Shown here: positions 4,880 through 25,838 of the stretch, in pieces
Numbering within the stretch: the stretch's first letter is position 1
How the letters are laid out: each line of letters opens with the position of its first letter
IMG/VR virus record: IMGVR_UViG_3300046536_000122
Span: 1 to 30,052 of that record
DNA from: a virus
Reading direction: 5' to 3' (one strand)
DNA length: 30,052 bases
The notes under the pieces: model-generated
The model's database searches: none
Seen by the model: only the letters and a program-made list of their open reading frames with translations
What the model was told of the DNA's origin: nothing
Program-made: the position numbers and the translations under genes

Positions 4880-4896
4880 ACAGGGAGAATGAGGCC

Positions 4897-5754
4897 ATGG
4901 ACGTTGTCAGCGCGCTGAGGCAGCACAGCGAGGCCGGTGCTGCCATCGTCGACCTGCTCTACGGGGAGATGGGCTCTGAGGTCTCCAAGGCGCTGATCGA
5001 GTTCGGCAAGGCTGCACCACCTACTGCCACACCTCAGACTGACCTGCGTAAGCGGAGGATGACTGCGGCGCTGAGCACAGTTGGTGCTGCTGCTGGTGCT
5101 GGTGGGCTGGCGCTGTCGGGCAAGAAGTTCGGGGGTGCAGCCAGGGCTGCCTACAAGGCGGCACCCACCTTGCGGAAGCTGCCTCGTCTCGGCCATGCCA
5201 TCTCCCAGGGTGTCAAGCACGAAGGCGGCTCAGCGGCGCTCTTCCCACTGGAGGTCGCCGGTCTGGGTGGTGAGATCTCAGCCACCAAGATCCTGCATGG
5301 CGACACCCAGCAGAAGAAGCAGCAGCAGCCGATGGCCAAGTCGGTGGACGAGGTCGGCATCTACGCCGAGATCTCCAAGGTCGACACCGACAAGCGACAG
5401 ATCTTCGGCTGGGCCAGCGTGACCAGCGTCAACGGTCAGCCAGTGGTCGACCTGCAGGACGACGTGCTGGACCTGGAGGAGATCGAGAAGGCTGCCTACT
5501 CCTTCGTGCAGAAGTCCCGGATCGGGGGGAACATGCACCAGAAGGAGGAGACCGGTCCGATCCACGTCTCCGACATGATCGAGTCGATGGTCATCACGCC
5601 GGAGAAGAAGAAGGCGATGGGTCTGCCGGACGAGGTCCCGGAGGGCTGGTGGGTCGGTTTCAAGGTGAACGACGACCAGACCTGGGCGGACGCCAAGACG
5701 GGCAAGCTGGCCGGGCTGAGCATCCATGGTTCTGGACGAAGGGTGCCGGTCTGA
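4897..5754 (+). CDS. XkdF-like capsid maturation (prohead) serine protease
   Basis: The start is ATG 4897 with AGGGAGA upstream; a longer frame from 4789 would overlap the MuF gene and lacks a ribosome site. The 285-residue product carries a protease domain at about 146-285 resembling the B. subtilis XkdF / S78-type phage protease family: the GWASV strand near 170, the VVDLQDDVL segment near 188, the candidate catalytic His in GGNMHQKE (H214), the GWWVGFKV strand near 249 and the candidate catalytic Ser in LSIHG (S275). Such enzymes cleave scaffold and capsid proteins inside the prohead. The first 145 residues are extra: a helical start, a Gly/Ala hydrophobic stretch (56-73) and a basic linker ending in a Gln-rich tract. 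An internal ATG at 5332 (residue 146) would give just the protease domain, though it has no good ribosome site. It overlaps the next gene by one base (TGATG). Confidence 0.85.
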   Translation: MDVVSALRQHSEAGAAIVDLLYGEMGSEVSKALIEFGKAAPPTATPQTDLRKRRMTAALSTVGAAAGAGGLALSGKKFGGAARAAYKAAPTLRKLPRLGHAISQGVKHEGGSAALFPLEVAGLGGEISATKILHGDTQQKKQQQPMAKSVDEVGIYAEISKVDTDKRQIFGWASVTSVNGQPVVDLQDDVLDLEEIEKAAYSFVQKSRIGGNMHQKEETGPIHVSDMIESMVITPEKKKAMGLPDEVPEGWWVGFKVNDDQTWADAKTGKLAGLSIHGSGRRVPV

Positions 5755-6776
5755 TGGCCTCGTTGACCACGCTGAACCACGCCAACAACGCGCTGCAGCA
5801 GAATGTCGACTTCAAGGGCACGAAGCCAGCTCTGAAGAAGGGCTCTCCAGCTGCCAAGGTGGCCCAGGGCAGCAACCAGATCTACCGGCAGACGTTCGGT
5901 AAGACCTCTGAAGCTCAGCTACGACATCAGAAGAAGATCAGTGCCAACACCACCATGGTGACCTCGACTCTTGGTCTGGGGGCAGCCGGTGCTGCTGCTG
6001 GTGGTGCGTTGACCAGGAAGGTCGGCGCAGTCAAAGGCAGTCTGAAGTTGATGCGGGCGGGCCGCAACCTGACCAAGGTGGGTGTCCCGGTCTCGCTGAC
6101 CGCTGGTGCCATCTCCGGTGCCTCGGGTTACAACAACGCCTCGATCCAGCGAGCCGAGGCGCGTCGCCGTAACCAGACCACACTGATCAAGGCCTACGAC
6201 CCGGAGTACAACCGGCAGCGCCGGAACAAGGTCGAGTCGGTGGCTGCGGCCACGGGTGGGGCCGGTGCGCTCGGTGGCGCTGGTTACCTCGGCCAGCGAG
6301 CTCTGCGTCATGACACCAAGAACCTGCACCAGGCCCAGGCACACCAGGTAGGGGAGCAGGAGCAGGTCAATCGGGTGACCGGTGAGCACAACATGTGGAA
6401 GAACCGTCTGGCCGGTGCCAATGCTGAGCATCGCAGATTGCACGCTGTCCGGACACAGATGGATGTCGGGAACAAGTTCAGTCCCGCCGACAAGCGAGCG
6501 CGAACTGGTCAGATCAATGCGCACCTGAAGTACCGGGACGTGGTGGTCAACAACATCAAGGAGACGGAGAAGCTGATCGGTCAGCACAAGGGCCGAGTCG
6601 GAGAAGCTGCCAGGGCGGTGAGTGGTCTCCGCAAGGTACGCAGGGTGCGGGGGGTCAAGGCTGGTGCGCTCGGTCTGGCCGGTGCCGGAGCCCTTGGTGG
6701 AGCGGCTTATCTACACCGGAAGCCCAGCACCAACAGCTGGGCCAGCTACTCTCCCCGCTATCGCCCGCAGTCCTGA
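5754..6776 (+). CDS. Gly/Ala-rich protein with hydrophobic segments, unknown head-module protein
   Basis: ATG 5754 overlaps the protease stop by one base, which decides the start over longer in-frame options. The 340-residue product is basic. It has Gly/Ala-rich hydrophobic stretches at about 67-86, 109-125 and 162-180 and near the C-terminus (about 303-322). The last two share the motif GAGALGGAxYL, so they look like an internal duplication. Between them lies a long polar helical region (about 185-300) rich in Gln, His, Lys and Glu. There is no signal peptide. I recognise no family. Position between protease and scaffold points to a head-internal protein. The alternation of amphipathic helices and membrane-compatible Gly/Ala segments recalls ejection proteins in general character only; this is inference. 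Confidence 0.75.
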   Translation: MASLTTLNHANNALQQNVDFKGTKPALKKGSPAAKVAQGSNQIYRQTFGKTSEAQLRHQKKISANTTMVTSTLGLGAAGAAAGGALTRKVGAVKGSLKLMRAGRNLTKVGVPVSLTAGAISGASGYNNASIQRAEARRRNQTTLIKAYDPEYNRQRRNKVESVAAATGGAGALGGAGYLGQRALRHDTKNLHQAQAHQVGEQEQVNRVTGEHNMWKNRLAGANAEHRRLHAVRTQMDVGNKFSPADKRARTGQINAHLKYRDVVVNNIKETEKLIGQHKGRVGEAARAVSGLRKVRRVRGVKAGALGLAGAGALGGAAYLHRKPSTNSWASYSPRYRPQS

Positions 6777-6812
6777 ACCCAGGTTGCGGCCTTGACCATA
6801 ATTGGTGGTGAC

Positions 6813-7631
6813 ATGCCGAACAAACTGAGCGATCTGGAAGTCGACGAGATCTCCCTGGTGTACAAGGGAGCGAACCAGCATTCCAGAGTCGCCATTGCCA
6901 AGTCTCTCGACGGTCAGCAGGAGGAAACCGTGGAAATCTTCGACCAGGACGGAAACCCGGTTGATCCCAACGCTCTAGAGCTGGGGGACGTGGTCTTCGA
7001 CGCTCAAGGTGAGGCCTACCAGTTCTCGGATGATGACGAGGACGACGAGGCCGAGGAGTACGAGGATCAGCCTGAGCTGACTGGGGTAGGCAAGTCGGCC
7101 TTCACCACTCAGAAGCAGGGTGTGGCCAAGAGCGCCACCGGCTTCGCGGACGACTTCCGGGTCCAGCTCTCCAAGGCACTCACTGACTCCGCTCGGGACG
7201 AGGTTTTCGCCAAGGCTGTCGACTACGTCAGCTACCTGGAGAAGATCGCCATGGGTGCTGAAGAGGTTGCCAAGGCTGAGCGCGACACCCGTCGTCGGAG
7301 TGAGTACCTGGAGATCGCCAAGTCCTACTCGCTGCCGGTTCACGACAACGACCTGGCCGACGCCATGATGGCGATCGAGGACAATGTCGCTCCGGAGTAC
7401 GTCGAGGTCATCGCCAAGTGCCTCGCGGCTGCTTCTGACGTGATGTTCGACGAGCTCGGCAGCAAGGGTGGTGGCACCAGCTCCTACCTGATCGACCAGA
7501 TCGAGAGCTACGCCAACAACCAGGTCACCAAGAGTGACACCAGCAAGGCTGAGTTGATCGCCAAGTCATTCGCGGACGATCCCTCTCTGTACGACCGGTA
7601 CCTCGACGAGTCCGGTCCCTACAACCGCTGA
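6813..7631 (+). CDS. scaffold-like capsid assembly protein
   Basis: I choose ATG 6813 (272 residues) over an in-frame TTG at 6792 because GGTGG lies just before it and the product then begins directly with a familiar N-terminal motif, VDEISLVYKGAN (about 10-21). That motif is common in phage proteins encoded beside XkdF-type proteases. A strongly acidic tract (about 73-88) follows, then predominantly helical sequence to the C-terminus, the composition expected for a scaffold. Short motifs of the type Ile/Val-Ala-Lys-Ser recur along the chain (first at 28-31) and may matter for processing. It sits between the maturation protease and the decoration and major capsid genes, the usual place for a scaffold. 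The role is inferred from motif, composition and place. Confidence 0.7.
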   Translation: MPNKLSDLEVDEISLVYKGANQHSRVAIAKSLDGQQEETVEIFDQDGNPVDPNALELGDVVFDAQGEAYQFSDDDEDDEAEEYEDQPELTGVGKSAFTTQKQGVAKSATGFADDFRVQLSKALTDSARDEVFAKAVDYVSYLEKIAMGAEEVAKAERDTRRRSEYLEIAKSYSLPVHDNDLADAMMAIEDNVAPEYVEVIAKCLAAASDVMFDELGSKGGGTSSYLIDQIESYANNQVTKSDTSKAELIAKSFADDPSLYDRYLDESGPYNR

Positions 7632-7654
7632 AACCCCGAGGAGGGTAGACCAAC

Positions 7655-8065
7655 ATGGCGTATGACGAAGCCATCCGGAATGTCACGCTGACTGCTGACA
7701 GCAGCCTGGCGGGCTACACCGGAGTGCCTGGTACCCCCGGGGCGGCTGACCCGAACTACGGGAAAGCCCAGTACCGGTTTGTCAAGGTGACCGGTGCCAA
7801 GCAGTGTGGACTTGCCACGGCAGTTGCTGACCATGTCGTGGGAGTAGCCCAGAACAAGCCCCAGGTAGCCGGACAAGCTGTCACGGTCGCCATCCGAGGC
7901 ATCTCCCAGGTGCTCAGCGGAGGGGTCTTCATCCCTGGGGACCTGATCGACACCGACGCCACCGGGCGAGCCGTGAAGTCCGGGGCCGGGAACGGTATCG
8001 GTATCGCGATCGAAGCATCTGGCGGGGCGAACCAGTTGTCCTCCGTCCTGCTTCGGTGCAACTGA
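7655..8065 (+). CDS. head decoration / capsid cement-like protein
   Basis: The 136-residue product looks like the small DUF2190-type capsid stabilising proteins found before major capsid genes. It is rich in Gly, Ala and Val. It shows the typical run of short beta strands, with a VVGVAQN segment (about 61-67), an AVTVAIRG strand, a GGVFIPGDLIDTDATGRA turn and a final GIGIAIEAS strand. Decoration proteins of this sort bind the outside of the expanded capsid and strengthen it. The ATG has GAGGAGGG eleven bases upstream. The major capsid gene follows after 14 bases, consistent with co-translation at high level. Confidence 0.75.
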   Translation: MAYDEAIRNVTLTADSSLAGYTGVPGTPGAADPNYGKAQYRFVKVTGAKQCGLATAVADHVVGVAQNKPQVAGQAVTVAIRGISQVLSGGVFIPGDLIDTDATGRAVKSGAGNGIGIAIEASGGANQLSSVLLRCN

Positions 8066-8079
8066 GAGAGGAGTGAGCG

Positions 8080-9096
8080 ATGCCTAACCCGACCCAGGCG
8101 GATCTTCACGTCAATGTGCCGCTGACCAACGTCAGCGTGGCGTACATCCAGAACGCCAGTAATTTCATTGCGTCGAAGATCTTCCCCCGCGTGCCAGTGT
8201 CCAAGCAGTCGGATCTGTACTGGAAGTACAGCAAGTCCGACTGGCGACGCACTGACGTGCAGCGTCGTGCCCCGTCGACCGAGACGCCTGGCACGGGCTG
8301 GAACGTCACGACGGACCAGTACTTCGCGCATGTCTACGGCGTCCACAAGGACATCGACGACCAGCTGCGAGCCAACGCCGACTCGGTGTTCCGGCTCGAC
8401 AGTGACGCGACCAACTTCGTCACCAACCAGCTGCTGCTCAAGCGGGACCTGGACTGGGCTGCTTCCTACTTCCGGACCGGTGTCTGGGGCCAGGACATCC
8501 AGCTCAAGAAGGCCGGTACCACAGCTGCTGAGGACCAGCGTTGGGATCTCGCCACGAGCGACCCGGTGTCCTGGTTCGCCACGGCTCAGGTCAACTTCAT
8601 CCAGCAGACCGGGTTCAAGGCCAACACGCTGGTGCTCGGTGCCTACACCCTGAAGGCGCTGAAGAACCACCCGGCGATCATCGACCGGATCAAGTACACC
8701 CAGAAGGGCATCGTCACCACCGATCTGATCGCTGAGCTGTTCGATGTCGAGAAGATCCTGGTCAGCTACGCCACCCTGAACTCCGGTCCGGACATCCCGG
8801 ACATGAAGGCTCAGGACGCGGCTGGCGTGATGAACTTCATCTCCAACCCGACCTCGGCACTGCTCTGCTACACCACCAACAGCCCCAGCCTGATGCAGCC
8901 GACCGCTGGCTACACCTTCACCTGGAACGGCTATCTCGGTGGCAACGCCCAGGGCATCCGGATGAGCCGCTTCCGCCAGGAGGCGATCCGTTCGGACCGG
9001 ATCGAGGGCGAGATGACGTACGACATGAAGGTGGTCTCACCTGACATGGGCCTGTTCCTGTCTGATGTGGTGGGGTCCGCAGCCGACCTGCCGTGA
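8080..9096 (+). CDS. major capsid protein
   Basis: The 338-residue product forms the capsid shell, presumably with the HK97 fold. Evidence is the N-terminal pattern of ASNFIASKIFPRVPV (about 27-41) followed by QSDLYWKY, typical of a large group of phage capsid proteins, and a C-terminal beta-rich part with GIRMSRFRQEAIRSDRIEG and a final MKVVSPDMG segment. Size, place after the scaffold and decoration genes and the strong GAGAGGAG ribosome site support the call. The absence of a long N-terminal scaffold-like domain fits a separate scaffold gene upstream. A hairpin terminator follows within 20 bases of the stop, as is common after capsid genes. Confidence 0.9.
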   Translation: MPNPTQADLHVNVPLTNVSVAYIQNASNFIASKIFPRVPVSKQSDLYWKYSKSDWRRTDVQRRAPSTETPGTGWNVTTDQYFAHVYGVHKDIDDQLRANADSVFRLDSDATNFVTNQLLLKRDLDWAASYFRTGVWGQDIQLKKAGTTAAEDQRWDLATSDPVSWFATAQVNFIQQTGFKANTLVLGAYTLKALKNHPAIIDRIKYTQKGIVTTDLIAELFDVEKILVSYATLNSGPDIPDMKAQDAAGVMNFISNPTSALLCYTTNSPSLMQPTAGYTFTWNGYLGGNAQGIRMSRFRQEAIRSDRIEGEMTYDMKVVSPDMGLFLSDVVGSAADLP

Positions 9097-12473: not shown

Positions 12474-12932
12474 ATGAGCACGGACACCAAAGCTGTTGGC
12501 TCCAACATCAAGCTCAACCGGTCGCTGACCGAAGACGCAGTGTCTCCTGAAGTACCAGAAGTCCCACAGGAGACACTGCGTGATCGCTTTCTGAAGAAGA
12601 AGCGACGGATCGAGGACCGCGAGATCACCATGGACGGTGAACAGGTCACGGTTAAGATCCAGGCCCTGACCCAACAGCAGCTCGACGACCTCTACTCCCA
12701 CCACCAGAAGCGCCGGAACAGGCAGGTCGACGATGCCCTCGGGGCCAACTCCGAGACCTTCCCGCCCGCTCTGTTCAGCATGTCCATCATGGAGCCGAAC
12801 CTGACCCAGGACGAGTGGCACGACCTGTGGGTCTCTCCGGAGTGGTCTCCAGGAGAGCTGGGCCACCTGCTGGACCTGGTGATGAACGTGACCACCCGTG
12901 GCTTCGACCCCCCTTTTGGCGGGCGCGGCTGA
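12474..12932 (+). CDS. tail assembly chaperone, unshifted product (lambda gpG-like)
   Basis: ATG 12474 follows AAGGAGAAGG. The 152-residue product is acidic at the start, then basic (RDRFLKKKRRIEDREI, about 36-51), with a QALTQQQLDDLY helix and a C-terminal helix ending in GFDPPFGGRG. Chaperones of this type coat the tape measure protein before tube polymerisation. Place directly between the tube and tape measure genes and the slippery site near the 3' end identify it. Most ribosomes should end here; a minority shift to make the longer product. Confidence 0.87.
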   Translation: MSTDTKAVGSNIKLNRSLTEDAVSPEVPEVPQETLRDRFLKKKRRIEDREITMDGEQVTVKIQALTQQQLDDLYSHHQKRRNRQVDDALGANSETFPPALFSMSIMEPNLTQDEWHDLWVSPEWSPGELGHLLDLVMNVTTRGFDPPFGGRG

Positions 12933-13378
12933 GAAGTGACCATCAGTTCGCGCTCGAAGTCTCCTGGTGCTCTGAACACGGGTTACCGCACTCGAAACTG
13001 TTGAAGTGGTCCCAGGAAGATCGGGCCAAACTGATCGCTCATCTGCTGGAGGAATCCACTCGTTGCTCGATGTGCGGAACCAAATCCTGGGAGTGGGAAG
13101 AGAACAAACGGGCCTACATGCCCACCGAAAAGTACTGTCACGGCTGCTATCTGAAACACGTCGGATCAGAAGACGCCAACGCACTTCCTGGAACCACGAT
13201 CGAGCTGATGCCCTACGACGCTGCCCTTGTCGAGTCTCAACGCTTACGCTACGAGCAGGCGATTATGAGTCGGGCGCAGAGCAGGGGCGATAGTGGCGAA
13301 CGAACAGTACGGGGTAACCCTCACAGCGGACAGCCAGCAGTACCAGCAGTCCCTCAACCAGTCGGTCCAGTCCACTAA
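12474..13378 (+). CDS. tail assembly chaperone, -1 frameshift fusion product (lambda gpGT-like)
   Basis: The fusion joins 12474..12917 to 12917..13378, giving about 301 residues. The shifted part begins WRARLRSD and reads HQFALEVSWCSEHGLPHSKLLKW, a pattern often seen in the second half of actinobacteriophage chaperones. It has a CxxC (C198, C201) and a second CxxC (C222, C225) twenty residues apart, with Trp and Tyr between, which looks like a zinc-ribbon knuckle. The T-like frame has no ribosome site of its own near any start, so expression by frameshifting is the sensible reading. Its 3' end overlaps the tape measure gene by 86 bases. Confidence 0.85.
12911..12956 (+). promoter_or_regulatory. 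programmed -1 ribosomal frameshift signal
   Basis: In the zero frame the bases read C CCT TTT (12911-12917), a canonical X XXY YYZ slippery heptamer; both tRNAs can re-pair one base back. Downstream, 12920-12927 can pair with 12949-12956 (8 bp, one G-T) and 12929-12932 with 12943-12946 (4 bp), separated by a G opposite TT, with a 10-base loop. The core stem from 12923 starts five bases after the heptamer, a normal spacer. The zero-frame stop is at 12930-12932, inside the stem. Confidence 0.85.
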
Positions 13379-16300
13379 CTCCCTGACCGATGCCCTGGGT
13401 CGCGCCGGGGTGGCGATGCAGGGTCTGTGGCAGAAGACCAACCGGAAGCTCACCTTCATCGCCGCTGGCGAGGTCGCGGCTATCACTGCGGCCTCGATCG
13501 CGGCTGGCAACCTGCAGCAGCAGATGGCCCAGCTGCAGGCCCGCCAGGTGCTCCTGCACCAGGACACCAACTCTTACGTCGGCACCGTCTCCAACCTGCA
13601 GCGTCAGTACGGACAGACCTCTCAGCAGGCCGTCCAGCTGATCCAGCAGCTGAACCAGCTCCAGGTGCCGTTCCGCCAGCAGCAGGCTACCGCCCAGAAC
13701 TACATCCGGATGGCCTCGGTCACCGGGGAGAACGTGAACCAGCTGGCCACCAGTCAGCAGAACTTCATGCGGGCGATGGGTGGCTCCCAGCGCTCGGTCG
13801 AGAACTACTCCTCGATGATGTCCAAGCTGCAGGCCACCACAGGTGCCTCGGCTTCAGCCACTGCTGACTTCGCCACCTCGATCGCTCCGATCTCGCGCAC
13901 CCTGGGGATCAACTCCAAGGAGGTGGCCGGGATCTCGGCTGCCTTCGTGAAGAGCGGCCAGGACGGCTACGCAGCGGCCAACGTCTACACGAAGATCATG
14001 TCCGACATCAACCGGGCAACCCAGTACGGATCGCCTGAGCTGAAGACCTACGCCGATCTGCTCGGGGTCAGTGTGGACCAGTTCAAGCAGATGCCCAAGG
14101 CCGAGGCCATCACCCAGATCTTCGACGATCTGAACAAGCAGGGTCCTCGCGGCATCAAGATGCTGGAGCAGCTGGGTCTGGAGGGTGTCCGGTCTCAGCG
14201 GGCCATCGCCTCGGTGGCTCAGCAGGGTGGCCTGGGTGGGGCCATCAACACCGCCAACGACGCCTACAGCAAGACCGGTGACTACCAGAAGGCCTCCAAG
14301 GAGGCCCTGTCTGGGATGAACGACGAGCTGTCCAAGACCCAGCAGAGCCTGACCGCTGTGGCTCAGGGCTTCGGCTCGCTGTTCATCCCGATGATCACCA
14401 AGGCTGTCCAGGCGGTGAATACCTTCATCTCCCCGCTGGTGAAGCTGACCACCATGCTGGCCTCGATGCCGGACTGGATGAAGAGCATGGGGGCGCTGCT
14501 GGCCGGTGGCGCGGTGGCAGCCAACTTCATCCCCCGCATCATCGCCGGTCTGGCTGGGGCCACCGGTATCGCTCAGGTGCTCCGTGGACCGGCCTCGCTC
14601 GGAGTCAGGGCAGGGTTCCGCCCGAACAACCTGAACGAGGCCCAGCAGAACTTCATGAAAGGTGAGGGGATGGCTGGTCCCCGCACCCTGTTCCGTGCTG
14701 GTGAGTTCGTCGGTCGCAACGTCCGTCCCTCCACCTGGGTCGAGCGGTTCGGTGGTGCTGAAGGACTGTCCCGCTACCAGGACCGGATGGCCAACCTGGG
14801 CGGATCAGCTGGCGATCGTTGGCGTCGACTCGGGATCAGTGCAGTCAGTGGTGTGGGCAGCCTGGCCTCGTCGATGTTCCTGCCCTGGCAGAAGGACTAT
14901 CTGCAAGACCCCTCGCAGATGCACAAGAACCCATTCGTCTCCCGGATGATGATGACCGACCAGGGCACCTGGGGCGATCAGTTCAAGAAGTGGTTCGGGG
15001 TCACCCAAGAGCAGAAGGATGCCTTCCGGGACGCCACTGGGCGAGAGGCAGCGGCGGGCAACCTGGCGGCGATCAAGGCACAGACCGGTGCCCTGAACTC
15101 CATGAACAAGGAGACCAACAACGCCACCACGGTGATGGGCCAGTTCCGTAAGTCAGCTGGCCAGTTCGCCAGGGCCGGGCTGAACGCGATGGGCGGGGCA
15201 GCCTATGAGGGCGGTCGGATGGGGATGGCCGGTCTCCGTGCCGGAGCTCCCCGCGCCCTTGGTGCGCTGGGTCGTGGGGTCGGTGCGGTAACCGACTTCC
15301 TGGGTGGTCCGGTCGGGCTCGCCATGATGGCCGGTACCGCCGCTGTCGGGGCCTACGGCCAGTACAAGTCCGGGATCGAAGGTGGCAAGGTCGATGCCGG
15401 TGACGATGTCGGTGCTGGTCACACCTACCGCGAAGCACTGGGGATCGCTGCTCGGGCCACCACATCTTTCGCTGATGTCATCAACGAGAGCGCCCACTCC
15501 ATCAACGACGCGGTTACCTCGGTAGCCGGGGCCATCCAGGTCAGCGCCAAGGACATCCAGACCGCCAGCGGCAAGCCGGTCCAGGACCAGAACGTCAAGA
15601 ACCTGACCGGGACCAACCTGCAGAACTACGTCACGGGCGCGCTGTACGGGGCCTCTCCGCAGGAGGCTCAGTCGCTGAAGTACGACCTGCTGGCCAAGGG
15701 GATGAGCCAATCCGAGGTCCAGCAGATGCTGAACACGGGGACCAACCAGAACACCCCGTTGACCGGGCTCTACGGAGCGATCAACACCTCGAACCAGACC
15801 GGCCTGTGGGGCACCGGGCTGTTCAACCAGTTCGGTCTGTCCAGTGCCAACCAGCAGAACGTCCAGACGGCCACAGGAACCGCTCAGCAGCAGCTGGCGC
15901 TGATCAACCAGCGGCTTGGCCCCCAGGCTGCCAACCAGTTCACCCAGGCCCAGTACGCCGATCTGGTGCGGGCCAACTACGGTGCTGCCACTGCCAGTGG
16001 TGGCTTCGACACTTCGCAGTTCAACGGCACGATGGGCTCGGGTAGTCGAGAGGCTCAGGGCCGTCAGCAGGCCTTTCTGCAGTTCCTGGGCACCACCGAC
16101 CCGGAGTCGCTGAAGGCTCTGCAACAGACTCAGACAGACCTGGCCAATCAGATGGGCGGCAGTACTGCTCAGGGTCAGGGTGGTGGTGCTGGCATCCGGA
16201 ACCGGTTCGGTGGCCGGAACGCAGTCGGTGGTCAACAGGCCAAGCAGCTGACTGCGGAAGAGCAGAACAAGCTCATCCGCAACAGCATGAACAAGCTGGC

Positions 16301-19300
16301 CAACAGCGGCACTCCGGCTGGCGAGAAGATGCGTCAGGCCATGATCGACGCGGGGATGAACCCCAACTTGACCTACGACCAGGGCACGCTGCAGGACGAC
16401 CCGCTGAGTGTGTTCGGCAACGAGCAGACCCGCTCGTCGATGGCGATCAGCTCCTCGGCTGCCGCCAACCTGTTCGGCACCCAAAATCAGAACCAGCGCC
16501 GGGTCATCAGCGCGATGAACAACGAGGGCAACGCTGGCGCGGCCTTCTCCGGTACCCAGGCCCTGATGTACGGGCAGATGGGCTCTCGGATGGGCGGCGG
16601 TCTGGATCAGACCATCGGGGAGCTGCAGAAGTTCGGTGGAGCAGTCGGTGCGGCCAACCCTCCTCTGCGGGCGATGATCGACGCCGCCGAGCAGGCCTCC
16701 ATTGCGCTGCGGAACTACAAGGACACCATCGGTGGCCGGACCACCCTGATGGACCAGGCTGGCACCCGACTGACCGACTTCGGCCACGCGCTGGCTGCCT
16801 ACCGCCAGAACCCGAACGACGAAACCAACGTCAAGCGGCTGCAGGGTGCTCAGGATGATGCCAAGCAGACAGCGTTGTCCATCAACGACTGGATGCAGAA
16901 CATGGTCCAGCAGTACCGGGCCTTCGATCGTCAGCGTCAGCAGGGCCAGGAGCAGTTGGACCGGTCGATGCAGCGGCAGAACCGCGACTACGGCATCCAG
17001 ATGGAGCAGGCTGACGAGGACTTCAACACCCAGCGGTCGCGGAACGAAGAGAACTACCACATCCAGCGGAACCGCAACATCAGTGATTTCCATCAGCAGG
17101 AGCAGCGTGCTCAGGCTGACTTCAACAAGCAGCGGAGCCGGGAAGAGCAGGACCACCAGACTCAGCTGAAGCGGATGGCTGAGGACTCGGCCAAGAGCTT
17201 CTACGACGTGTACACCCGGATCACCACCCAGCGCACCTGGGACTCTGCCAGTCTGCTGCAGAACATGGGTGTGCAGACCCAAGCGATGCAGCAGCAGAAG
17301 ACCGACCTGGGCACCCTGCGGAAGATGGGACTGTCCAACGCAGCCATCCAGCAGCTCGGACTGTCGGACCCCCAGCAGGCCCAGGAGGTCACTCGGCTGC
17401 TCCAGGGCCTCCAGGCCAATCCCTCCCAGATCAAGCAGTTCAACGCCGGGGTGGGGACCCGGACACAGTCGGCAGGTTCGTTGGCGATGGATGCTGGCAA
17501 CACCGAGTACGCCCGCTCAGAGGCCGACCGGAAGAAGGCGCTGAAGCGCAGCTCGGATGACTTCGACGAGTCGATGGACCGGCAACGTAGTGACTTCCAC
17601 AAGCAGCTGAGCCGCTCCGGACAGGACTTCTCGCGGGCGATGAGCCAGTCACAGAGTGACTACAACAAGATGCGCAAGCGTCAGCAGGATGCTCTGAAGC
17701 GGTCTCAGGACGACATGCAGAGCGACTTCAACAACTCGATGAAGATCCAGCTGAGCAACATCAACTTCTTCGCCCAGCAGACCTCACAGACCTTCACCGA
17801 TGCCCAGAAGACGGTGGAGTCGCGCACGTCCGGGATGACCAAGAAGCAGGTCCAGGACATGGGCGACCTGATGGGCAAGCTGAACTACGTGGTGGTCACC
17901 CAGGTTGATTCCATGGACACCACGGTGGCTGGGCCGTACAAGAAGTGGGGGATCTCCCCGCAGGGCAAGCAGCTCATCTCCGGTGGTGCTGGTGGAGCTG
18001 GTGGCAGGACTGCTCCGGGCAAGGGCAACATCCACGGCAACATCCCGGGTGGTGGTCCTGGCGACGATGCCTCGGTGGCCTCGGTGCTGACCACCTCCCA
18101 CATCGGAGGCGGTGGCAGTGGTGGCAGCGGCAAGAAGGACTGGCCGGTCGCCAACCACCACGTCGGTACTCCCTGGGGCAAGCCAGGTGGCTGGAAGGGT
18201 TCCAAGACCCTGGGTCCAGGCTTCCACTCCGGTGCCGACTTCCCGGTCGGTGTCGGTACCCCCGTGCACGCGGTCGAGGACGGCACGATCTCCTCGGCGG
18301 GCTGGAAGGGTGCCTACGGCAACATGGTGGACATCAACCATGGTGGCGGCATCCACACCTGGTACGCCCACAACTCCTCCCTCGGGGTGAAGCGTGGCGA
18401 CCACGTCACTGCTGGTGAGGTCATCTCCCACTCTGGTGAGACCGGTCGTGCCTTCGGTCCCCACGTCCACCTGGAGCTGCGGGTCAACGGCTACGACAAG
18501 GACCCGATCCCCTGGCTGAAGGGTGCTGCCACCCCCAGTGGTGGTTCTCCCAGTGGTAGCGGTCAGAGCGGTGCCACTGAGCCGCATCCGGACTTCAAGA
18601 AGTTCGTGGAGAAGTTCGAGTCCGAAGCTGACGCGATGAACTACCTCAGTTCTCACCGTGAGCAGTTCCACTCCGGCTTCTACTACAAGAAGGGTGAGCT
18701 GGCCGATGCCATGGCCGCTGATTTCCACGAGCAGTGGCAGAACAAGTACGGCGGTGTTGCCTACGGCGACGGGTCAACTGGTGATGGCGGTGTCACCACG
18801 GGTGGCAAGGGTGGCGCTATGGGGATCTGGAACGCGCTACGGACCGGTGGGTTGAGCGAGGTCCAGGCCGCTGGCGTGATGGGCAACATGCACGACGAGT
18901 CGGGGCTGAGCTGGAACATCAAGCAGGGTGGTGGCACCTCCAACAACCCGTCGTCAACCGGTGCTGGCTACGGCCTGGTGCAGTGGACTCCCGGCTCCAA
19001 GCTGACCGAGATCTTGAAGGCGATGGGACTGCAGAACTCCCTGGAGAACCAGGTCAAGGCGCTGTTGAACCAGCTGTCAGGTCATGGCCCGGACAGCGAG
19101 GGTCGGGCAGGGAAGATGCTGAAGGAAGCCACCTCGGTCTTCGACGCGACCAAGGCCTTCCTGCGCGGCTACGAGCGAGCGGCAGACACCTCCGACGCGG
19201 CGGTCAACCGGCGCAACAAGTGGAGCGAGCAGTACTACAAGCAGTTCCACGGAGGGAAGCTGCCCGACTCGGGTGCCATCAAGGGCACGCCCGGGGACAA

Positions 19301-19979
19301 GTTCGCTCAGGCGTTGAAGTGGGCCGAATCCCAGAGCGGTCTGCCCTACGTCTTCGGCTCACCTGGTCCTGGTGGTTACGACTGCTCCGGCTTCATCGGT
19401 GCGGTCCAGAACTACATCGAGGGCAAGCCACTGCACGTGCGTCGGTACTCCACCCAGCAGTTCGGTGGTCACACCAACTTCGACCACTTCACCAAGGGGA
19501 AGAAGTCACCCTTCATGATCGGGGTCAAGCCGGACACCGGTCGGTCCGGGCACATGGCGGGAACCCTGGACGGGGTGAACATCGAGTCTTCCGGTGGCAA
19601 GGGTGTGCACTATGGCAGGGGAGCCAGGGGCTGGAACGACTCATACTTCTCCTGGCGCGGCGGCTACGGCGGCTACGGCGGGGGCACTGGATCGGCCAAT
19701 CCGGGCTGGCACTGGGTTGGTGAGCACGGTCCTGAGCTGCGGGCCTTCAAGGGCGGGGAGACCGTTCTGAACGCTGCCCAGTCGATGAATGCCATGATGA
19801 GAGCCAAGTCCAACCAGGTGGTGTCGGCGTCAGGTAACCACATCACCACCAACAACAACTCCTTCGATCACTCGGTACAGGTGGCCAGCGTGACGGTCAA
19901 GGCAGACAACCCCCGGACGATGTTGACCGAGCTGGAGCGAGAGGCCCGGTTCGCTGCTCTGACGGGGACGAAGAAGTGA
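13293..19979 (+). CDS. tape measure protein with three peptidoglycan hydrolase domains
   Basis: GTG 13293, with AGGGG upstream, starts inside the chaperone frame. The 2228-residue protein sets tail length and fills the tube. Order: Gln-rich helical N-terminus (1-350); hydrophobic segments at about 360-430 and 666-690; long Gln/Asn/Gly-rich helices; two blocks of 11-residue coiled-coil repeat (about 1211-1299 and 1424-1512); a Gly-rich linker. Then come an M23 metallopeptidase (about 1625-1735; HSGAD with H1645 and D1649, HVH with H1724 and H1726), a phage tail lysozyme-like domain (about 1843-1984; candidate Glu E1869 in MHDES), and an NlpC/P60-like Cys peptidase (about 2010-2130; YDCSGF with C2031, GHMAG with H2087). 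The C-terminus has GEHGPELRAFKGGETVL, common in tape measures. Having M23, glycosidase-like and NlpC/P60-like domains together implies local cell wall opening during DNA entry. Confidence 0.95.
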   Translation: MANEQYGVTLTADSQQYQQSLNQSVQSTNSLTDALGRAGVAMQGLWQKTNRKLTFIAAGEVAAITAASIAAGNLQQQMAQLQARQVLLHQDTNSYVGTVSNLQRQYGQTSQQAVQLIQQLNQLQVPFRQQQATAQNYIRMASVTGENVNQLATSQQNFMRAMGGSQRSVENYSSMMSKLQATTGASASATADFATSIAPISRTLGINSKEVAGISAAFVKSGQDGYAAANVYTKIMSDINRATQYGSPELKTYADLLGVSVDQFKQMPKAEAITQIFDDLNKQGPRGIKMLEQLGLEGVRSQRAIASVAQQGGLGGAINTANDAYSKTGDYQKASKEALSGMNDELSKTQQSLTAVAQGFGSLFIPMITKAVQAVNTFISPLVKLTTMLASMPDWMKSMGALLAGGAVAANFIPRIIAGLAGATGIAQVLRGPASLGVRAGFRPNNLNEAQQNFMKGEGMAGPRTLFRAGEFVGRNVRPSTWVERFGGAEGLSRYQDRMANLGGSAGDRWRRLGISAVSGVGSLASSMFLPWQKDYLQDPSQMHKNPFVSRMMMTDQGTWGDQFKKWFGVTQEQKDAFRDATGREAAAGNLAAIKAQTGALNSMNKETNNATTVMGQFRKSAGQFARAGLNAMGGAAYEGGRMGMAGLRAGAPRALGALGRGVGAVTDFLGGPVGLAMMAGTAAVGAYGQYKSGIEGGKVDAGDDVGAGHTYREALGIAARATTSFADVINESAHSINDAVTSVAGAIQVSAKDIQTASGKPVQDQNVKNLTGTNLQNYVTGALYGASPQEAQSLKYDLLAKGMSQSEVQQMLNTGTNQNTPLTGLYGAINTSNQTGLWGTGLFNQFGLSSANQQNVQTATGTAQQQLALINQRLGPQAANQFTQAQYADLVRANYGAATASGGFDTSQFNGTMGSGSREAQGRQQAFLQFLGTTDPESLKALQQTQTDLANQMGGSTAQGQGGGAGIRNRFGGRNAVGGQQAKQLTAEEQNKLIRNSMNKLANSGTPAGEKMRQAMIDAGMNPNLTYDQGTLQDDPLSVFGNEQTRSSMAISSSAAANLFGTQNQNQRRVISAMNNEGNAGAAFSGTQALMYGQMGSRMGGGLDQTIGELQKFGGAVGAANPPLRAMIDAAEQASIALRNYKDTIGGRTTLMDQAGTRLTDFGHALAAYRQNPNDETNVKRLQGAQDDAKQTALSINDWMQNMVQQYRAFDRQRQQGQEQLDRSMQRQNRDYGIQMEQADEDFNTQRSRNEENYHIQRNRNISDFHQQEQRAQADFNKQRSREEQDHQTQLKRMAEDSAKSFYDVYTRITTQRTWDSASLLQNMGVQTQAMQQQKTDLGTLRKMGLSNAAIQQLGLSDPQQAQEVTRLLQGLQANPSQIKQFNAGVGTRTQSAGSLAMDAGNTEYARSEADRKKALKRSSDDFDESMDRQRSDFHKQLSRSGQDFSRAMSQSQSDYNKMRKRQQDALKRSQDDMQSDFNNSMKIQLSNINFFAQQTSQTFTDAQKTVESRTSGMTKKQVQDMGDLMGKLNYVVVTQVDSMDTTVAGPYKKWGISPQGKQLISGGAGGAGGRTAPGKGNIHGNIPGGGPGDDASVASVLTTSHIGGGGSGGSGKKDWPVANHHVGTPWGKPGGWKGSKTLGPGFHSGADFPVGVGTPVHAVEDGTISSAGWKGAYGNMVDINHGGGIHTWYAHNSSLGVKRGDHVTAGEVISHSGETGRAFGPHVHLELRVNGYDKDPIPWLKGAATPSGGSPSGSGQSGATEPHPDFKKFVEKFESEADAMNYLSSHREQFHSGFYYKKGELADAMAADFHEQWQNKYGGVAYGDGSTGDGGVTTGGKGGAMGIWNALRTGGLSEVQAAGVMGNMHDESGLSWNIKQGGGTSNNPSSTGAGYGLVQWTPGSKLTEILKAMGLQNSLENQVKALLNQLSGHGPDSEGRAGKMLKEATSVFDATKAFLRGYERAADTSDAAVNRRNKWSEQYYKQFHGGKLPDSGAIKGTPGDKFAQALKWAESQSGLPYVFGSPGPGGYDCSGFIGAVQNYIEGKPLHVRRYSTQQFGGHTNFDHFTKGKKSPFMIGVKPDTGRSGHMAGTLDGVNIESSGGKGVHYGRGARGWNDSYFSWRGGYGGYGGGTGSANPGWHWVGEHGPELRAFKGGETVLNAAQSMNAMMRAKSNQVVSASGNHITTNNNSFDHSVQVASVTVKADNPRTMLTELEREARFAALTGTKK
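16923..17189 (+). repeat. 11-residue (33-bp) coiled-coil repeat block 1 in tape measure
   Basis: Aromatic or large hydrophobic residues recur exactly every 11 residues: F1211, L1222, Y1233, F1244, Y1255, F1266, F1277, H1288, S1299. The unit approximates D-[F/Y]-x-x-Q-x-x-R-x-x-x, with Asp or Glu just before the aromatic. This is a hendecad pattern, compatible with a nearly straight helical bundle. It is a protein-level repeat; DNA copies have diverged. Confidence 0.85.
17562..17828 (+). repeat. 11-residue coiled-coil repeat block 2 in tape measure
   Basis: A second run with the same spacing: F1424, F1435, F1446, Y1457, L1468, F1479, I1490, F1501, T1512. The unit again has Asp before the aromatic and Arg or Lys and Gln or Ser in the middle. 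It is separated from block 1 by about 125 residues that are not in the same register (125 is not a multiple of 11), so the blocks are independent helices. Confidence 0.83.
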
Positions 19980-20892: not shown

Positions 20893-21779
20893 GTGTCACT
20901 CCCTGGGGTTTTCTCTCGCCCACTGTCGACTACACGAAGACACCATCCACTCAGCCGATCGACCGTCTGGTCCCACGCCGGACGATCTCGCTGACGCCAG
21001 AGGACGCCATCATGCTGAACGGCTTTCCCCGGGTGCCGAAGAGCGGCGTGATGGCCCGAGCGATGTTCAGCACTGATGGCGTGTACTACACGGAGCGGAA
21101 GTCCTTCGACGACATCAACCACGACTCCTGGGCGTCGTTCGTCGGCTCATCGGTCTACTGGGATCCGGTCGCTGGCATCTGGTCTCCGATCCGGTCCAAC
21201 TCCCCGGTGCTCTACCAGTTCACTGGTGTGCCGGGGACCACGCCTGTGCTGGACACGCTGGAGTACCGCTCCGGCAAGGAGTTGATGACCAACGACGCTC
21301 TGGTCTTCGACAACACGGTGACCTTGTCAGCTCAGTTCAACGAGGGTCTGGACGATGCGACAAGATTCACCCTGGCGATGGCACTGTTCTGCCAGGACTC
21401 AGGACCGAACACCGTCATCACGTTCGCAGATGGTGCAACAGTCGGGGTCACCCCGACCGGGCTGACTGCCACTATGGACGGGATCACCTGGGACGTACCA
21501 ATCAAGACGGGGCCGATGAGACTCGGACCACTCTTCTTGATCCTGGAGCTGAAACCTCCGACCGCCAACCTCTACGCCGGATACAGCCCGACCAACATCT
21601 CTTGGGGAAGCTCAGTGATCTCTCGGAACACGACGCGATTCGCCTTCACTGTGGGGTCTCCGATGAGTCTGTTCGCACTGGATGTCTGGGGTGACGGTGC
21701 TCCAATCGCCTCTCAGATCGTCTCTGACTACGCCAGCGTGCTCGGTAACACCGACTCCCCGGTGGCGATGTTCGCATGA
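20889..21779 (+). CDS. minor tail protein
   Basis: GTG 20889 overlaps the previous TGA (GTGA) and is preferred to an in-frame ATG at 20874. The 296-residue product is beta rich with few charged stretches. A central part (about 120-250) has a jelly-roll-like strand rhythm with FTLAMALFCQDSGPN and FLILELKPP. Regions of this style appear in lectin-like fibre proteins. I recognise no precise family. It lies between the Gp80-like protein and the large hub-like protein and overlaps the latter by four bases, so it is likely a baseplate or tip component. Confidence 0.65.
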   Translation: MSVTPWGFLSPTVDYTKTPSTQPIDRLVPRRTISLTPEDAIMLNGFPRVPKSGVMARAMFSTDGVYYTERKSFDDINHDSWASFVGSSVYWDPVAGIWSPIRSNSPVLYQFTGVPGTTPVLDTLEYRSGKELMTNDALVFDNTVTLSAQFNEGLDDATRFTLAMALFCQDSGPNTVITFADGATVGVTPTGLTATMDGITWDVPIKTGPMRLGPLFLILELKPPTANLYAGYSPTNISWGSSVISRNTTRFAFTVGSPMSLFALDVWGDGAPIASQIVSDYASVLGNTDSPVAMFA

Positions 21780-23995
21780 GCAGCGCCCCCAGGCTGTACC
21801 AGCAGGCCGGAGGATCTGGCTATTTCCGGATCTGGGCCAAGAGCCCGAGCGGTGTGTCGACCGAGATCACTTTCGTCCGGGACGTGCCGACCATCATTGA
21901 CTCGATGTCGACTGCAGACCCGTTCAGTGACTCCTCTGCCTCGCTGTCCTTCAGCGCAGTGACCGGGTTCGATCGCCCGGGTAACGGGATGCTGAGCTGG
22001 CTGGTGCCGTACTCCCAGATCACCATCCGCTGGTACGACATGACCGAAGTGGTGGTCAACGGTGTGTCGACGACTGTTCCGGTGGTGAACCCGAACTGGG
22101 TCTGGGAGGGATACATCGCCTCTGAAGAGATCGGCCAGCCATACCAGGTCCAGTGCAAGGGTGCGTTGTTCCAGGCAGACAACTTCCTGGCTGAGCCGCT
22201 CTACCCGACCTACCCGATCCCGTACGAGACGATGATCTCCAAGATGCTGGATCCGGTCTCCCGGCCCACTATCGGTACGTCCAAGCTCGTGGTCGAGTAC
22301 CCGAGTGACTGGGCTACCAAGGTGCCGACCTTCAAAGAGCCGAGCTACCTGTGGTTCCTGGTCCCCCAGGGGCTGGCTACCGGCGCGAACTGGTCCGGGC
22401 TGACCACCCGCGACACTGGCTCCTGGAACCCGATCATGACCGGCTACATCCAGAACCTGCTGGCCACGATGTACACGCCAACAGGGGAGCAGTGGACCCT
22501 GATGAAGCGGGTCGGCAGAGTGCCGGTACTGATGGTGCGTAACCGGGTCATCTTTCCCGATTCCCAGACCTTGGTGGTCTACTACGAGGCTCCAGGCACC
22601 AAGAGCTCCTTCTCCCGCGACTTCACCCAGACCGCCAATGTCATCTACGGCGACGGCAAGGACCTGGCCGGATCGACCTTCACCGGGATGCAGATCGCGG
22701 CTGACCAGACCACCTGGTACGAGCCGTACTCGGCTCTGCCCCAGGTCTATCCGGCCAACGCCTCGAACCCTCGCTGGCTGAAGACGATGCCGGTCAAGGA
22801 GATGCACTTCTCGTTCCAGCAGGGGATGGATGAGCTGACCGCGAAGGACACCGCCTACGCCCAGCTGCAGAAGTTCGCTGACCCCGGCTACACCGGCAGC
22901 ATCACGATCCAGAGTGATCCGATGCGAGACGGCCAGCCCTTCAACAAGTTCCTGATCCAGGCGGGCCAGAGTGTGCTGCTGAAGAACTTCCGGGGTGGTG
23001 ATGTGCTGTTCCATATCGCTGCCGTCACGGTGTCGCCGGAGGAGAACTCGGTCAGTCTGACGGTCGACAACAAGTACCGGGACGCGCTGACGGTCGGTGA
23101 GGTCAGGGCCAGAACACGTGACGCGTTGGACCCGATCAACCTGCTCAAGCCGGGATCAGTGTCTGGTGTCGTCAACGACATGCTCAAGCCGTGGAGCTAC
23201 GCGAACGGCTCTGGTGTCATCCCCAGTGGTGGTAACAACGATGCCACCCCCTTCTTCAAGTCGATGCCAGCAACCTCGGTCTTCCCCTGGACAGACTGGA
23301 CGGCGAAGTACCCGCCGAAGAAGTTCCCGCAGTACTACATCAAGGTCAGCCGGAAGAGCGCGTCAGCGTCTGATCGCTGGCAGGACTACTGGGGGACCTA
23401 CAAGGTCAGGCCGAAGTTCGCTGTCTCGGTACCGATCAAGGGCGCTGAGGCTGGCACCATCCGACTGACCCAGATCGCTGCTTACGACCGGGACGGCAAA
23501 CAGGTTCCGTGCCGGTTCCACTTCGCCATCTACGACAACAACGGGGTGACCGTTCAGGCCATGCCGATGATCCCGGCTGGCGTCAAGGGCCTGCCTACTG
23601 GCTACGCGGCGGGCCAGTACTACCCGTTCTTCCCTGCCGCCTTCAACAACTACAAGCCGTCCGGAGAGCTGACGACCCAGGGTGGTGTGCTGCTCAGCAG
23701 TGGTTCCACGATGTTCGCTGGCTGGGGGACATCCGAGGAGCCAGCTGGCTACTCTCCGGGGACCAAGGGAACCGGTAGTGCGGTGACTGGCAGGCTGGAG
23801 GACGCCGCCTCCTGGTCCTTCGACACCGCGACGAACGACAAGAACTTCGACAAGTCTTCGGCCCAGAACGTGGCAGGTTACAAGACTGCCGGTTACATGT
23901 ACTGCATGCTGTTCCAGGACGATCTCCCAGAGGCCTACTTCATCGGTCGGCTCTGGAAGGACCCAGCAACAGCTCCGACTGGCGGTGGCGGCTAG
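21776..23995 (+). CDS. large minor tail protein, probable tail hub / tip protein
   Basis: ATG 21776 overlaps the previous stop (ATGA). The 739-residue product has an N-terminal part like siphovirus hub proteins: strands with SMSTADPFSDSSASLSF (about 43-59), a WVWEGYIASEEI strand (about 105-116) and YQVQCKGALFQADNFL (about 122-137). A motif near 420-450, NSVSLTVDNKYRDALTVGE followed by RTRDALDP, is common in actinobacteriophage minor tail hub proteins. Residues about 460-739 are a Gly, Tyr and Pro rich beta region that may bind a cell surface ligand. Hub proteins anchor fibres and form the tail tip opened at infection. Function is inferred from motif and order. Confidence 0.72.
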   Translation: MSSAPRLYQQAGGSGYFRIWAKSPSGVSTEITFVRDVPTIIDSMSTADPFSDSSASLSFSAVTGFDRPGNGMLSWLVPYSQITIRWYDMTEVVVNGVSTTVPVVNPNWVWEGYIASEEIGQPYQVQCKGALFQADNFLAEPLYPTYPIPYETMISKMLDPVSRPTIGTSKLVVEYPSDWATKVPTFKEPSYLWFLVPQGLATGANWSGLTTRDTGSWNPIMTGYIQNLLATMYTPTGEQWTLMKRVGRVPVLMVRNRVIFPDSQTLVVYYEAPGTKSSFSRDFTQTANVIYGDGKDLAGSTFTGMQIAADQTTWYEPYSALPQVYPANASNPRWLKTMPVKEMHFSFQQGMDELTAKDTAYAQLQKFADPGYTGSITIQSDPMRDGQPFNKFLIQAGQSVLLKNFRGGDVLFHIAAVTVSPEENSVSLTVDNKYRDALTVGEVRARTRDALDPINLLKPGSVSGVVNDMLKPWSYANGSGVIPSGGNNDATPFFKSMPATSVFPWTDWTAKYPPKKFPQYYIKVSRKSASASDRWQDYWGTYKVRPKFAVSVPIKGAEAGTIRLTQIAAYDRDGKQVPCRFHFAIYDNNGVTVQAMPMIPAGVKGLPTGYAAGQYYPFFPAAFNNYKPSGELTTQGGVLLSSGSTMFAGWGTSEEPAGYSPGTKGTGSAVTGRLEDAASWSFDTATNDKNFDKSSAQNVAGYKTAGYMYCMLFQDDLPEAYFIGRLWKDPATAPTGGGG

Positions 23996-24363
23996 TGGCA
24001 AACTACGGCACGTTTTCGAGCTACCAGGTCGAGATCTGGCTGGCGACGCTGAACAATCGGTACGTCGCCCTGCACTTCGACAACCCGGAGACCACCGGGG
24101 CCTACATGTCAGAGATCCACGGCGGTGCCTACGCCCGCCAGCTGGTCCAGATGAGCGCTCCGGACAATCGGGCTACCTGGAACGTCAACGACTTGTCCTG
24201 GTCCGTCCCACCTGCCACCAGGATCTCCTACGTCGCCTTCTGGGACGCGGTCGTCAACGGTAACTACCTCTGCTCCGCCCCACTCGATGTCGAGCAGACC
24301 ATCGTGGCCGGTAAGCGGTTCGACTACCCGGCCCTGAGCCTGGCGCTGAGCTTCGACTCCTAG
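23995..24363 (+). CDS. small fibre/baseplate protein, Gp80-like family
   Basis: GTG 23995 overlaps the previous TAG by one base. The 122-residue product resembles the 20461..20892 protein: WLATLNN near the start, GGAYARQLV (about 43-51), then WNVNDLSWSVPPATRISYVAFWDA split over about 62-85, an NGNYL turn and a final ALSLALSF strand. The GG-YAR and N...P...YVAFWD core fits the small phage fibre or baseplate family. It is the last plus-strand gene; its TAG shares bases with the stop of terL on the other strand. Confidence 0.65.
   Translation: MANYGTFSSYQVEIWLATLNNRYVALHFDNPETTGAYMSEIHGGAYARQLVQMSAPDNRATWNVNDLSWSVPPATRISYVAFWDAVVNGNYLCSAPLDVEQTIVAGKRFDYPALSLALSFDS
24360..24363. other. shared CTAG supplying stop codons on both strands
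   Basis: Bases 24361-24363 are the TAG of the plus-strand gene and bases 24362-24360 are the TAG of terL on the minus strand. The palindrome CTAG thus ends both converging genes, with a two-base overlap of the stops. No intergenic terminator fits here, so any terminator must lie inside a coding region. Confidence 0.97.
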
Positions 24364-25838
24364 CTGAGGGAGAACACGTTGTCTTCCTGCTTGACCACCT
24401 GACCGTCGATCCGGTCGTACTGACTCTTGACGTTGTCCTCCACCGCGTGGGTCATCCAGTTGTTGTTCACCTTCGGCGGGGCGAACGGAGAGACGATCGG
24501 GAACCGGTTGGCCACCATCTTCCAGGCCAGCGCGGAGGAGCACACCTCGTCGGGCAGGTGGAACTCCTTGGACCGGGAGAACATGTCGTCGGTCGACACG
24601 TGCTTGTGCGCGGTGTAGATCGAGTCGATCCGAGAGGCCCGGACCCACTTCCGCTCCACGGCTGAGACGTACTCGCTGAGCATGTTGTCCCGTTGTGCGC
24701 CGGTCATCAAGAAGTTGCGGACCCGGTCCTCCAGGTAGTCCGCCACCACTCCACCCAGCCCGGTGGCGTCGTGAATGCCCTCCGCGTGGTAGCGCTTCTG
24801 CAGGGCGTTGAAGTAGCCCACCATCAGTGGGTAGGGACGGCGCTGCATCCGGACGTAGTAGGCCAGTCTGATCGGGGTCTCAGTGGCGTCCCAGACGGTG
24901 ATGACGGTCCAGTCCACGTCCCTGGCCCAGTCGGCGGCGATCACGTAGTCACGGATCACCTCAGGCTGCAGGATCAGGTACTCCTGGTGGTCACGAGTCA
25001 GCTTCAGCGGTTCCGGAGCTGGGGCGTCGAACATGAACTCGACCGCCTCGGAGTCGATGGCCCGGTTGCCGATCGAAGGCTCACCGAGCTCGTACTCCAC
25101 CCGCCAGGTTTCCCGGGAGACGGTCCGGCGCTTGTTCTCGATGGCCTCCTGACTCAGCCACCCGTCGATCGGGTTCGAGGTGTCCTTGTAGCAGAACTCA
25201 TAGATCGGCAGACCCTCTTCGCGGAACTTGGCCATCGCCTTGGTCATCGTGGAGTCCGCGTACTGGTGGGTGCTGACGGCGATGGTGTTGGCCGGGATCT
25301 CCACCCCGAGCCAGTTCTTCTGCGGCATCGGCTGGCCCAGCGCAGCCTCGTAGATCGATTCGTCCATCTCGTCGATCTCGTCCAGCGCCAGGAACGCCGG
25401 GTGAGGACCACGAACCGTCTTCTGGGATGCGGTCAGCGGCCGGATCTTTGCTCCGTTGGTCAGCTTGATCTCGGTCTTGTTGTCGCTCAGGATCATGTAG
25501 CTGGGTGCGTCCTGGTAGCGCCAGGCTCGGCTCATCGACTCGATCACGTTGTTCGACTGGGCCAGCGAGCCACCCAGCACGTTGACATCACAGCCCCAGA
25601 CCACAGCCTTGGTCAGGGCCAGCAGAGACATCATCACGCTCTTGCCGCTCAGGCCACGAGAACCCTTGACCAGCACCTGAGGCTCACGACCGAAGAAGGC
25701 GGTGGAGAAGGCGTCGAAGGGTGCCTGGTGCTCTGCGCAGACCTTATGTCGTGGCACCGTGAATCCCCAGAGCGACTGGACCAGTTGGTAGAGCTCGTCG
25801 TCGTTACGAGGTGGGCGGGTCAGGTGGATCCTGGTCAT
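24360..25838 (-). CDS. terL: terminase large subunit
   Basis: The 492-residue product is the packaging motor ATPase and nuclease. The ATPase half shows a Walker A-like GSRGLSGKS (59-67), Walker B FLALDE (149-154, with D153 and E154) and a coupling motif VSTHQYAD (188-195). The RNase H-like nuclease half shows VIAADWARDVDW with D303 and D309, then HDATGLGG with D357, and a late aspartate-bearing helix (about 440-450). Length and domain order are normal. It cuts concatemeric DNA and pumps it through the portal. It is the last gene of the minus-strand run, on the opposite strand from the head genes; its ATG lies 35 bases inside the small membrane protein gene, implying translational coupling. 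No small subunit is seen in the window. Confidence 0.95.
   Translation of the reverse strand: MTRIHLTRPPRNDDELYQLVQSLWGFTVPRHKVCAEHQAPFDAFSTAFFGREPQVLVKGSRGLSGKSVMMSLLALTKAVVWGCDVNVLGGSLAQSNNVIESMSRAWRYQDAPSYMILSDNKTEIKLTNGAKIRPLTASQKTVRGPHPAFLALDEIDEMDESIYEAALGQPMPQKNWLGVEIPANTIAVSTHQYADSTMTKAMAKFREEGLPIYEFCYKDTSNPIDGWLSQEAIENKRRTVSRETWRVEYELGEPSIGNRAIDSEAVEFMFDAPAPEPLKLTRDHQEYLILQPEVIRDYVIAADWARDVDWTVITVWDATETPIRLAYYVRMQRRPYPLMVGYFNALQKRYHAEGIHDATGLGGVVADYLEDRVRNFLMTGAQRDNMLSEYVSAVERKWVRASRIDSIYTAHKHVSTDDMFSRSKEFHLPDEVCSSALAWKMVANRFPIVSPFAPPKVNNNWMTHAVEDNVKSQYDRIDGQVVKQEDNVFSLS

Follow-up and report, generated by a model that had tools for sequence, protein, structure and literature searches.

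The window, by which we mean the whole 30,052-nucleotide stretch analysed here (IMG/VR record IMGVR_UViG_3300046536_000122, a 30-kb linear virus fragment), carries on its plus strand a tape measure protein gene whose product contains three predicted peptidoglycan hydrolase domains in series. The gene and its parts are located as follows.

13293..19979, + strand: tape measure protein, 2,228 aa, GTG start; matches to TIGR01760 and PF10145
18222..18506, + strand: peptidase M23 domain (LytM/lysostaphin fold), aa 1644-1738; Pfam E 9.6e-30
18525..18797, + strand: linker joining the M23 and lysozyme domains, aa 1745-1835, helical in part; segments at a similar place in relatives
18819..19247, + strand: Phage_lysozyme2 domain (phi29 gp13-type), aa 1843-1985; Pfam E 7.5e-27
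19299..19700, + strand: NlpC/P60 (C40)-like cysteine peptidase domain, aa ~2003-2136; from profile, PDB and AF2 evidence
19701..19976, + strand: C-terminal tail with the GWHWVGEHGPEL..GGETVLN motif, then ~30 aa

The open reading frame at 13293-19979 is the longest in the tail module, and its product belongs with the TP901-type tape measure proteins, as evidenced by matches to TIGR01760 (tape_meas_TP901; 48.5 bits, cut-off 28.8) and PF10145 (PhageMin_Tail; 40.8 bits, cut-off 33.2, E 2.8e-10). The protein is a siphophage-type tape measure protein. The hydrolase domains occupy its C-terminal quarter in the order M23, tail lysozyme and C40-like, and no convincing Pfam match was found for the linker at aa 1745-1835. 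The original prediction, made from the letters alone, had placed an M23, a tail lysozyme-like and an NlpC/P60-like domain in series at 18150-19700. The domains map to 18222-19700, in agreement with those coordinates, and the motifs that it quoted (HSGAD/HVH, MHDES, YDCSGF and GHMAG) are all found in the translation. The series itself is borne out by Pfam for the first two domains, and by a profile, PDB matches and AlphaFold for the third.

The first domain is a member of the Peptidase_M23 family (PF01551; 103.1 bits, cut-off 28.7, model positions 2-96 of 96). All residues of the HxxxD...H...HxH pattern are intact, namely H1645 and D1649 in HSGAD, H1693, and H1724 and H1726 in HVH; following established chemistry, we take H1645, D1649 and H1726 to be the zinc ligands and H1693 and H1724 to be catalytic. 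The sequence matches PDB entry 9gy1 with an E-value of 3.8e-22, and lysostaphin is also matched. In an AlphaFold model of aa 1610-1995 (pLDDT 71.1), the M23 part resembles LytM, lysostaphin and similar chains with a Z of ~10, and Foldseek agrees. The second domain falls within PF18013 (94.7 bits, cut-off 28.2, positions 4-140 of 140). It matches phi29 gp13 (3csr) in sequence with an E-value of 1.4e-7, with E1869 of the MHDES motif pairing with E45 of gp13, and the model superposes on 3csr over 140 residues (Z 17.5, rmsd 2.1), giving it the gp13 fold. The catalytic Glu, E1869, is kept in 99 of 99 aligned lysozyme rows. The Pfam E-values place both the M23 and the lysozyme matches beyond chance.

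The third domain is less readily captured by Pfam. The NLPC_P60 model (PF00877) matches aa 2016-2056 with 14.8 bits, below its cut-off of 23 (E 0.029), and the match spans only the first 38 model positions, which is the Cys half. Homologous tape measure domains, where they are matched by this model, score 16.8-24.1 bits, mostly under the cut-off. We built alignments of the domain from 11 reference sequences and then from 36 IMG/VR relatives, the latter set giving a profile of 37 rows. Searched against the PDB, this profile finds gp16, the tape measure protein of Douge (8zdo), with an E-value of 3.4e-12 and, independently, the NlpC/P60 enzymes 7cfl (1.1e-8), LytE (3.4e-6) and SagA (1.9e-5). The resolved part of the Douge protein is confined to residues 1,658-1,699 (PMC13033339), so its copy of this domain is without a solved structure. 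The AF2 model of the window's domain (pLDDT 75.6, pTM 0.77) has NlpC/P60 or CHAP structures as its top matches, with VIA Z-scores up to 9.2 over ~115 residues and Foldseek probabilities up to 1.00 (lowest E 2.6e-3). All 176 aligned rows of the domain keep C2031 (YDCSGF), H2087 (GHMAG) and E2098; the last is a further catalytic residue, absent from the original prediction, and places a Glu where the third catalytic residue is usually His, Asn or Gln. A precedent for Glu at this position is RipA of M. tuberculosis, for which the entry titles describe structures mutated at C383 and E444. The profile match to NlpC/P60 structures, the predicted fold and the invariant C, H and E together exclude chance, and both sequence and model assign the domain to the NlpC/P60 fold, C40-like. 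Since it belongs to a divergent branch that the Pfam model covers poorly, we file it outside the curated family.

Homologous domains with the same C-H-E residues and 32–48% identity are found in Marky, Rowa, Kromp, Zuko, P1312, Faith1, P1201 and Douge gp16, which are tape measure proteins of Streptomyces, Thermobifida, Corynebacterium and mycobacteriophages. Those of this set that were scanned carry the domain alone or with SLT, and never with M23 plus tail lysozyme as in the window; a hidden tail lysozyme upstream of the domain in Kromp or Zuko was not supported. A tblastn search with the domain returned 94 phage records, every one a phage of actinobacteria. This C40-like branch is common in actinophage tape measure proteins and is largely missed by the Pfam NlpC/P60 model. 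The tape measure motifs of mycobacteriophage TM4 gp17 likewise place a hydrolase domain within an actinophage tape measure protein (PMC1796659), as a single motif (mt3), in contrast to the window's series of three different families. Equating the window's third domain with mt3 was rejected, judged by description only, as the description of mt3 fits metalloendopeptidases (PMC1796659).

How unusual the three-part series is was addressed with a local HMM census of fetched loci, a non-random sample taken from scans that list at most the best 80 matches, in which some loci share a contig and the window itself accounts for two entries (L001 and L114). Among the matches listed, the third domain occurs alone in 170 open frames and with SLT in three; none of these 173 other open frames has M23 and tail lysozyme beside it, a count that covers the modelled hydrolase types only and from which near kin of the window may be missing. 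The listed matches further include 16 open frames with lysozyme followed by M23, four with M23 followed by lysozyme, one with M23 and two lysozymes, and one with lysozyme followed by NlpC (MarsHill). According to a 2017 review, one or two lytic domains are carried by a virion-associated lysin (PMC5380687). Within this sample, the suggestion that three domains in one tape measure protein form a heavier set than usual therefore holds. When the 547-aa three-domain stretch was searched as a whole, viral contigs gave only two weak C-terminal matches, and bacterial genomes gave matches to the M23 part in Firmicutes only.

One locus, L129, was examined as a possible further triple, or even quadruple, case. 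It contains a 2,735-aa open frame (3-8207) that reaches the end of the locus, in a phage of low GC (33%). The M23 and both lysozymes were confirmed, and the candidate was set aside at its last C..H stretch, which has no Pfam or PDB match. By eye, this final stretch, located after both lysozymes, is CHAP-like.

Known systems provide pairs of these activities. The SPbeta-like tape measure proteins of Staphylococcus and Mammaliicoccus phages resemble the window in having tail lysozyme and M23 in one protein, and phi29 gp13 combines the same two in one tail protein. In both, the order is lysozyme then M23 and an NlpC/P60 domain is absent, whereas M23 comes first in the window. The MarsHill tail lysin joins tail lysozyme to NlpC/P60 in one protein, as a pair only. 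Enterococcal phage tail proteins combine lysozyme with NLPC/P60 (EF62phi) or M23 with NlpC/P60 (Kochikohdavirus) (PMC10194240). In MarsHill and the enterococcal phages, the pair lies in what is termed a tail lysin or a tail protein, whereas the window's set lies in the tape measure protein. Staphylococcus phage CF5 encodes a glucosaminidase, a tail lysozyme and a CHAP domain in three adjoining genes, so three activities per tail were already known, and the unusual point here is their presence in one tape measure protein. We conclude that the virion-associated muralytic set of the window is real and modular, and that its combination of three parts is uncommon. Where virion-associated lysins usually have one or two catalytic domains, here three families share a single tape measure protein.

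The relatives of the protein bear on how such a set could arise. A scan with the N-terminal region of the tape measure protein gave 32 relatives, 14 of them with a full-length protein, whose C-termini were checked by Pfam (L295 and L299 by local HMM only). Five of the 14 carry M23-SLT (L286, L287, L290, L296 and L298), two carry M23-lysozyme (L303, on the same contig as L122, and L289, on the same contig as L124), one carries M23 alone (L284) and one a weak SLT without M23 (L282); no hydrolase domain was detected in the remaining five (L292, L295, L299, L301 and L307). An M15-like peptidase suspected by eye in L282 was not confirmed.

The most informative of these relatives are L122/L303 and L124/L289, from uncultivated phages in IMG/VR, whose C-terminal part is also homologous to that of the window. 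L122 and L124 share with it a region at about aa 95-394, a coiled coil at about 1174-1528 and the lysozyme (45–51%), and they have M23 before lysozyme as the window does. They differ in two respects. Their M23 is without the first zinc ligand, and the C40-like domain is absent, such that the lysozyme runs directly into the C-terminal tail. Compared with these relatives, only the window has the C40 domain, followed by the GWxWVGExGPEL..GGETVLN motif, separating the lysozyme from the conserved C-terminus. The two parts of the tail have different affinities: the GWHWVGEHGPEL..GGETVLN motif is held in common with tape measure proteins that carry the third domain, and the last ~30 aa with L122/L124. 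The C40 domain and the motif after it are similar to third-domain proteins such as L034 and L019, with local scores of 93-113 for the motif region, and the terminus gives 73 and 54 against L122/L124, where the shuffled mean is 25. The simplest reading of these sequences is that a C40 cassette was inserted into an M23-lysozyme tape measure protein, and we infer that it was gained by recombination with the tape measure type common in actinophages. The direction, gain in the window as opposed to loss in the relatives, is taken from gene content.

A wider reading, which we offer tentatively and hold at somewhat under even confidence, is that this tape measure family serves as a platform for swappable cassettes, with an endopeptidase slot, a glycosidase slot in which SLT and tail lysozyme replace each other at one position, and an optional third slot for a C40 domain brought in as a unit from a different tape measure lineage. 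If so, a single protein of the triple form would supply three bond specificities at entry. The members of the family, with zero, one, two or three domains on one backbone, constitute a natural series for the contribution of each activity to infection.

Tape measure proteins occupy the tail tube and are ejected once the baseplate opens. In Douge, the trimeric C-terminus of the tape measure protein occupies the lumen of the baseplate, and ejection is proposed to be triggered when it is released (PMC13033339). By analogy, this location suggests that the C-terminal end, where the window's hydrolases reside, would leave the tail first. Opening of the baseplate would then expel the tape measure protein, and the C-terminal domains could cut the wall locally. 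From their families, M23 would be expected to cleave cross-links or stem peptides, the lysozyme glycan strands, and the C40 domain cross-links or stem peptides as a D,L-endopeptidase. The resulting local opening of the peptidoglycan would let protein and DNA get through. The experimental precedent is motif 3 of the TM4 tape measure protein, which hydrolyses peptidoglycan and, although dispensable for viability, aids infection of stationary cells (PMC1796659). The claim that the tail can cut several bond types is thus plausible, given three hydrolase families or folds with intact catalytic residues. We consider it highly probable that the explanation as a whole is correct, that is, a modular three-enzyme C-terminus, gain of the C40 domain, opening of the wall at entry and a probable actinobacterial host.

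That the three domains are working enzymes could be questioned, since pseudo-enzymes occur in the same families: entry titles describe RipD (4jxb) as a non-catalytic NlpC/P60 protein and EnvC (4bh5) as an amidase activator of LytM fold. One or two of the window's domains might accordingly be wall-binding or structural. Indeed, three of the eight relatives compared (L303, equivalent to L122; L289, equivalent to L124; and L298) have an M23 without its first zinc-ligand His, and these domains are likely kept as pseudo-peptidases. In the window, however, every catalytic residue checked is present in all three domains, and we regard a non-enzymatic role as unlikely. Of the two outcomes that would have gone against the original prediction, neither arose: HMM and structure prediction gave hydrolase families or folds throughout, and no catalytic residue was lost on alignment. 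It is also conceivable that the domains act at separate stages, with the third, for example, functioning in tail maturation or virion release and not jointly with the others at entry. Some tape measure proteins do undergo proteolytic processing, which would accommodate such a division. Against it, all three domains are C-terminal, the end that in Douge sits in the baseplate lumen (PMC13033339), and we think it very improbable.

The original prediction had further taken the size of the set to indicate a thick or modified wall in the host. The two-domain virion lysins all come from Gram-positive phages, for which a link to wall thickness has been suggested only (PMC5380687). Full-length relatives range from none to two hydrolase domains, and most tape measure proteins with the third domain were found without a second hydrolase of the modelled types. 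The set is not tied to any wall type. With 0-2 domains in the relatives, M23 degraded in three of eight, and a third domain that looks like a transferred cassette, the thick-wall inference is unsupported, and adaptation to an unusual wall seems to us quite improbable. We retain the reading of a modular set acting together at entry. Its host is most likely an actinobacterium, which we infer mainly from the third domain, since the closest named relatives of the tail lysozyme are in Firmicute phages. The capsid protein has its nearest counterparts in phages of Pseudomonas, Rhizobium, Microbacterium and Arthrobacter and leaves the host undecided.

Beyond the hydrolases, the window has no named near relative, given that 25 kb of it found no match among known phages at the nucleotide level and that two further proteins, at 26-2737 (903 aa) and 21776-23995 (739 aa), returned nothing when 50,697 phage records were searched with tblastn. 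These two proteins are likewise without Pfam or PHROG matches, and the tape measure protein minus its hydrolases gave four weak matches. A weak match to the terminase large subunit (phrog_9, E 1.4e-7) lies at 24360-25838 on the minus strand, opposite to and downstream of the tail genes. At 23995-24363 on the plus strand is a Gp80-type protein that matches podophage GP4 fiber I (PF23140, E 4e-17) and phrog_240; the tail module is siphovirus-like. Finally, a slippery heptamer, C CCT TTT, is located at 12911-12917 in the 0 frame of the ORF at 12474-12932. In the -1 frame, ORF 12815-13378 stays open as far as 13378, overlapping the start of the tape measure gene, and the heptamer is a candidate site for programmed -1 frameshifting in a tail assembly chaperone of the G/GT type.
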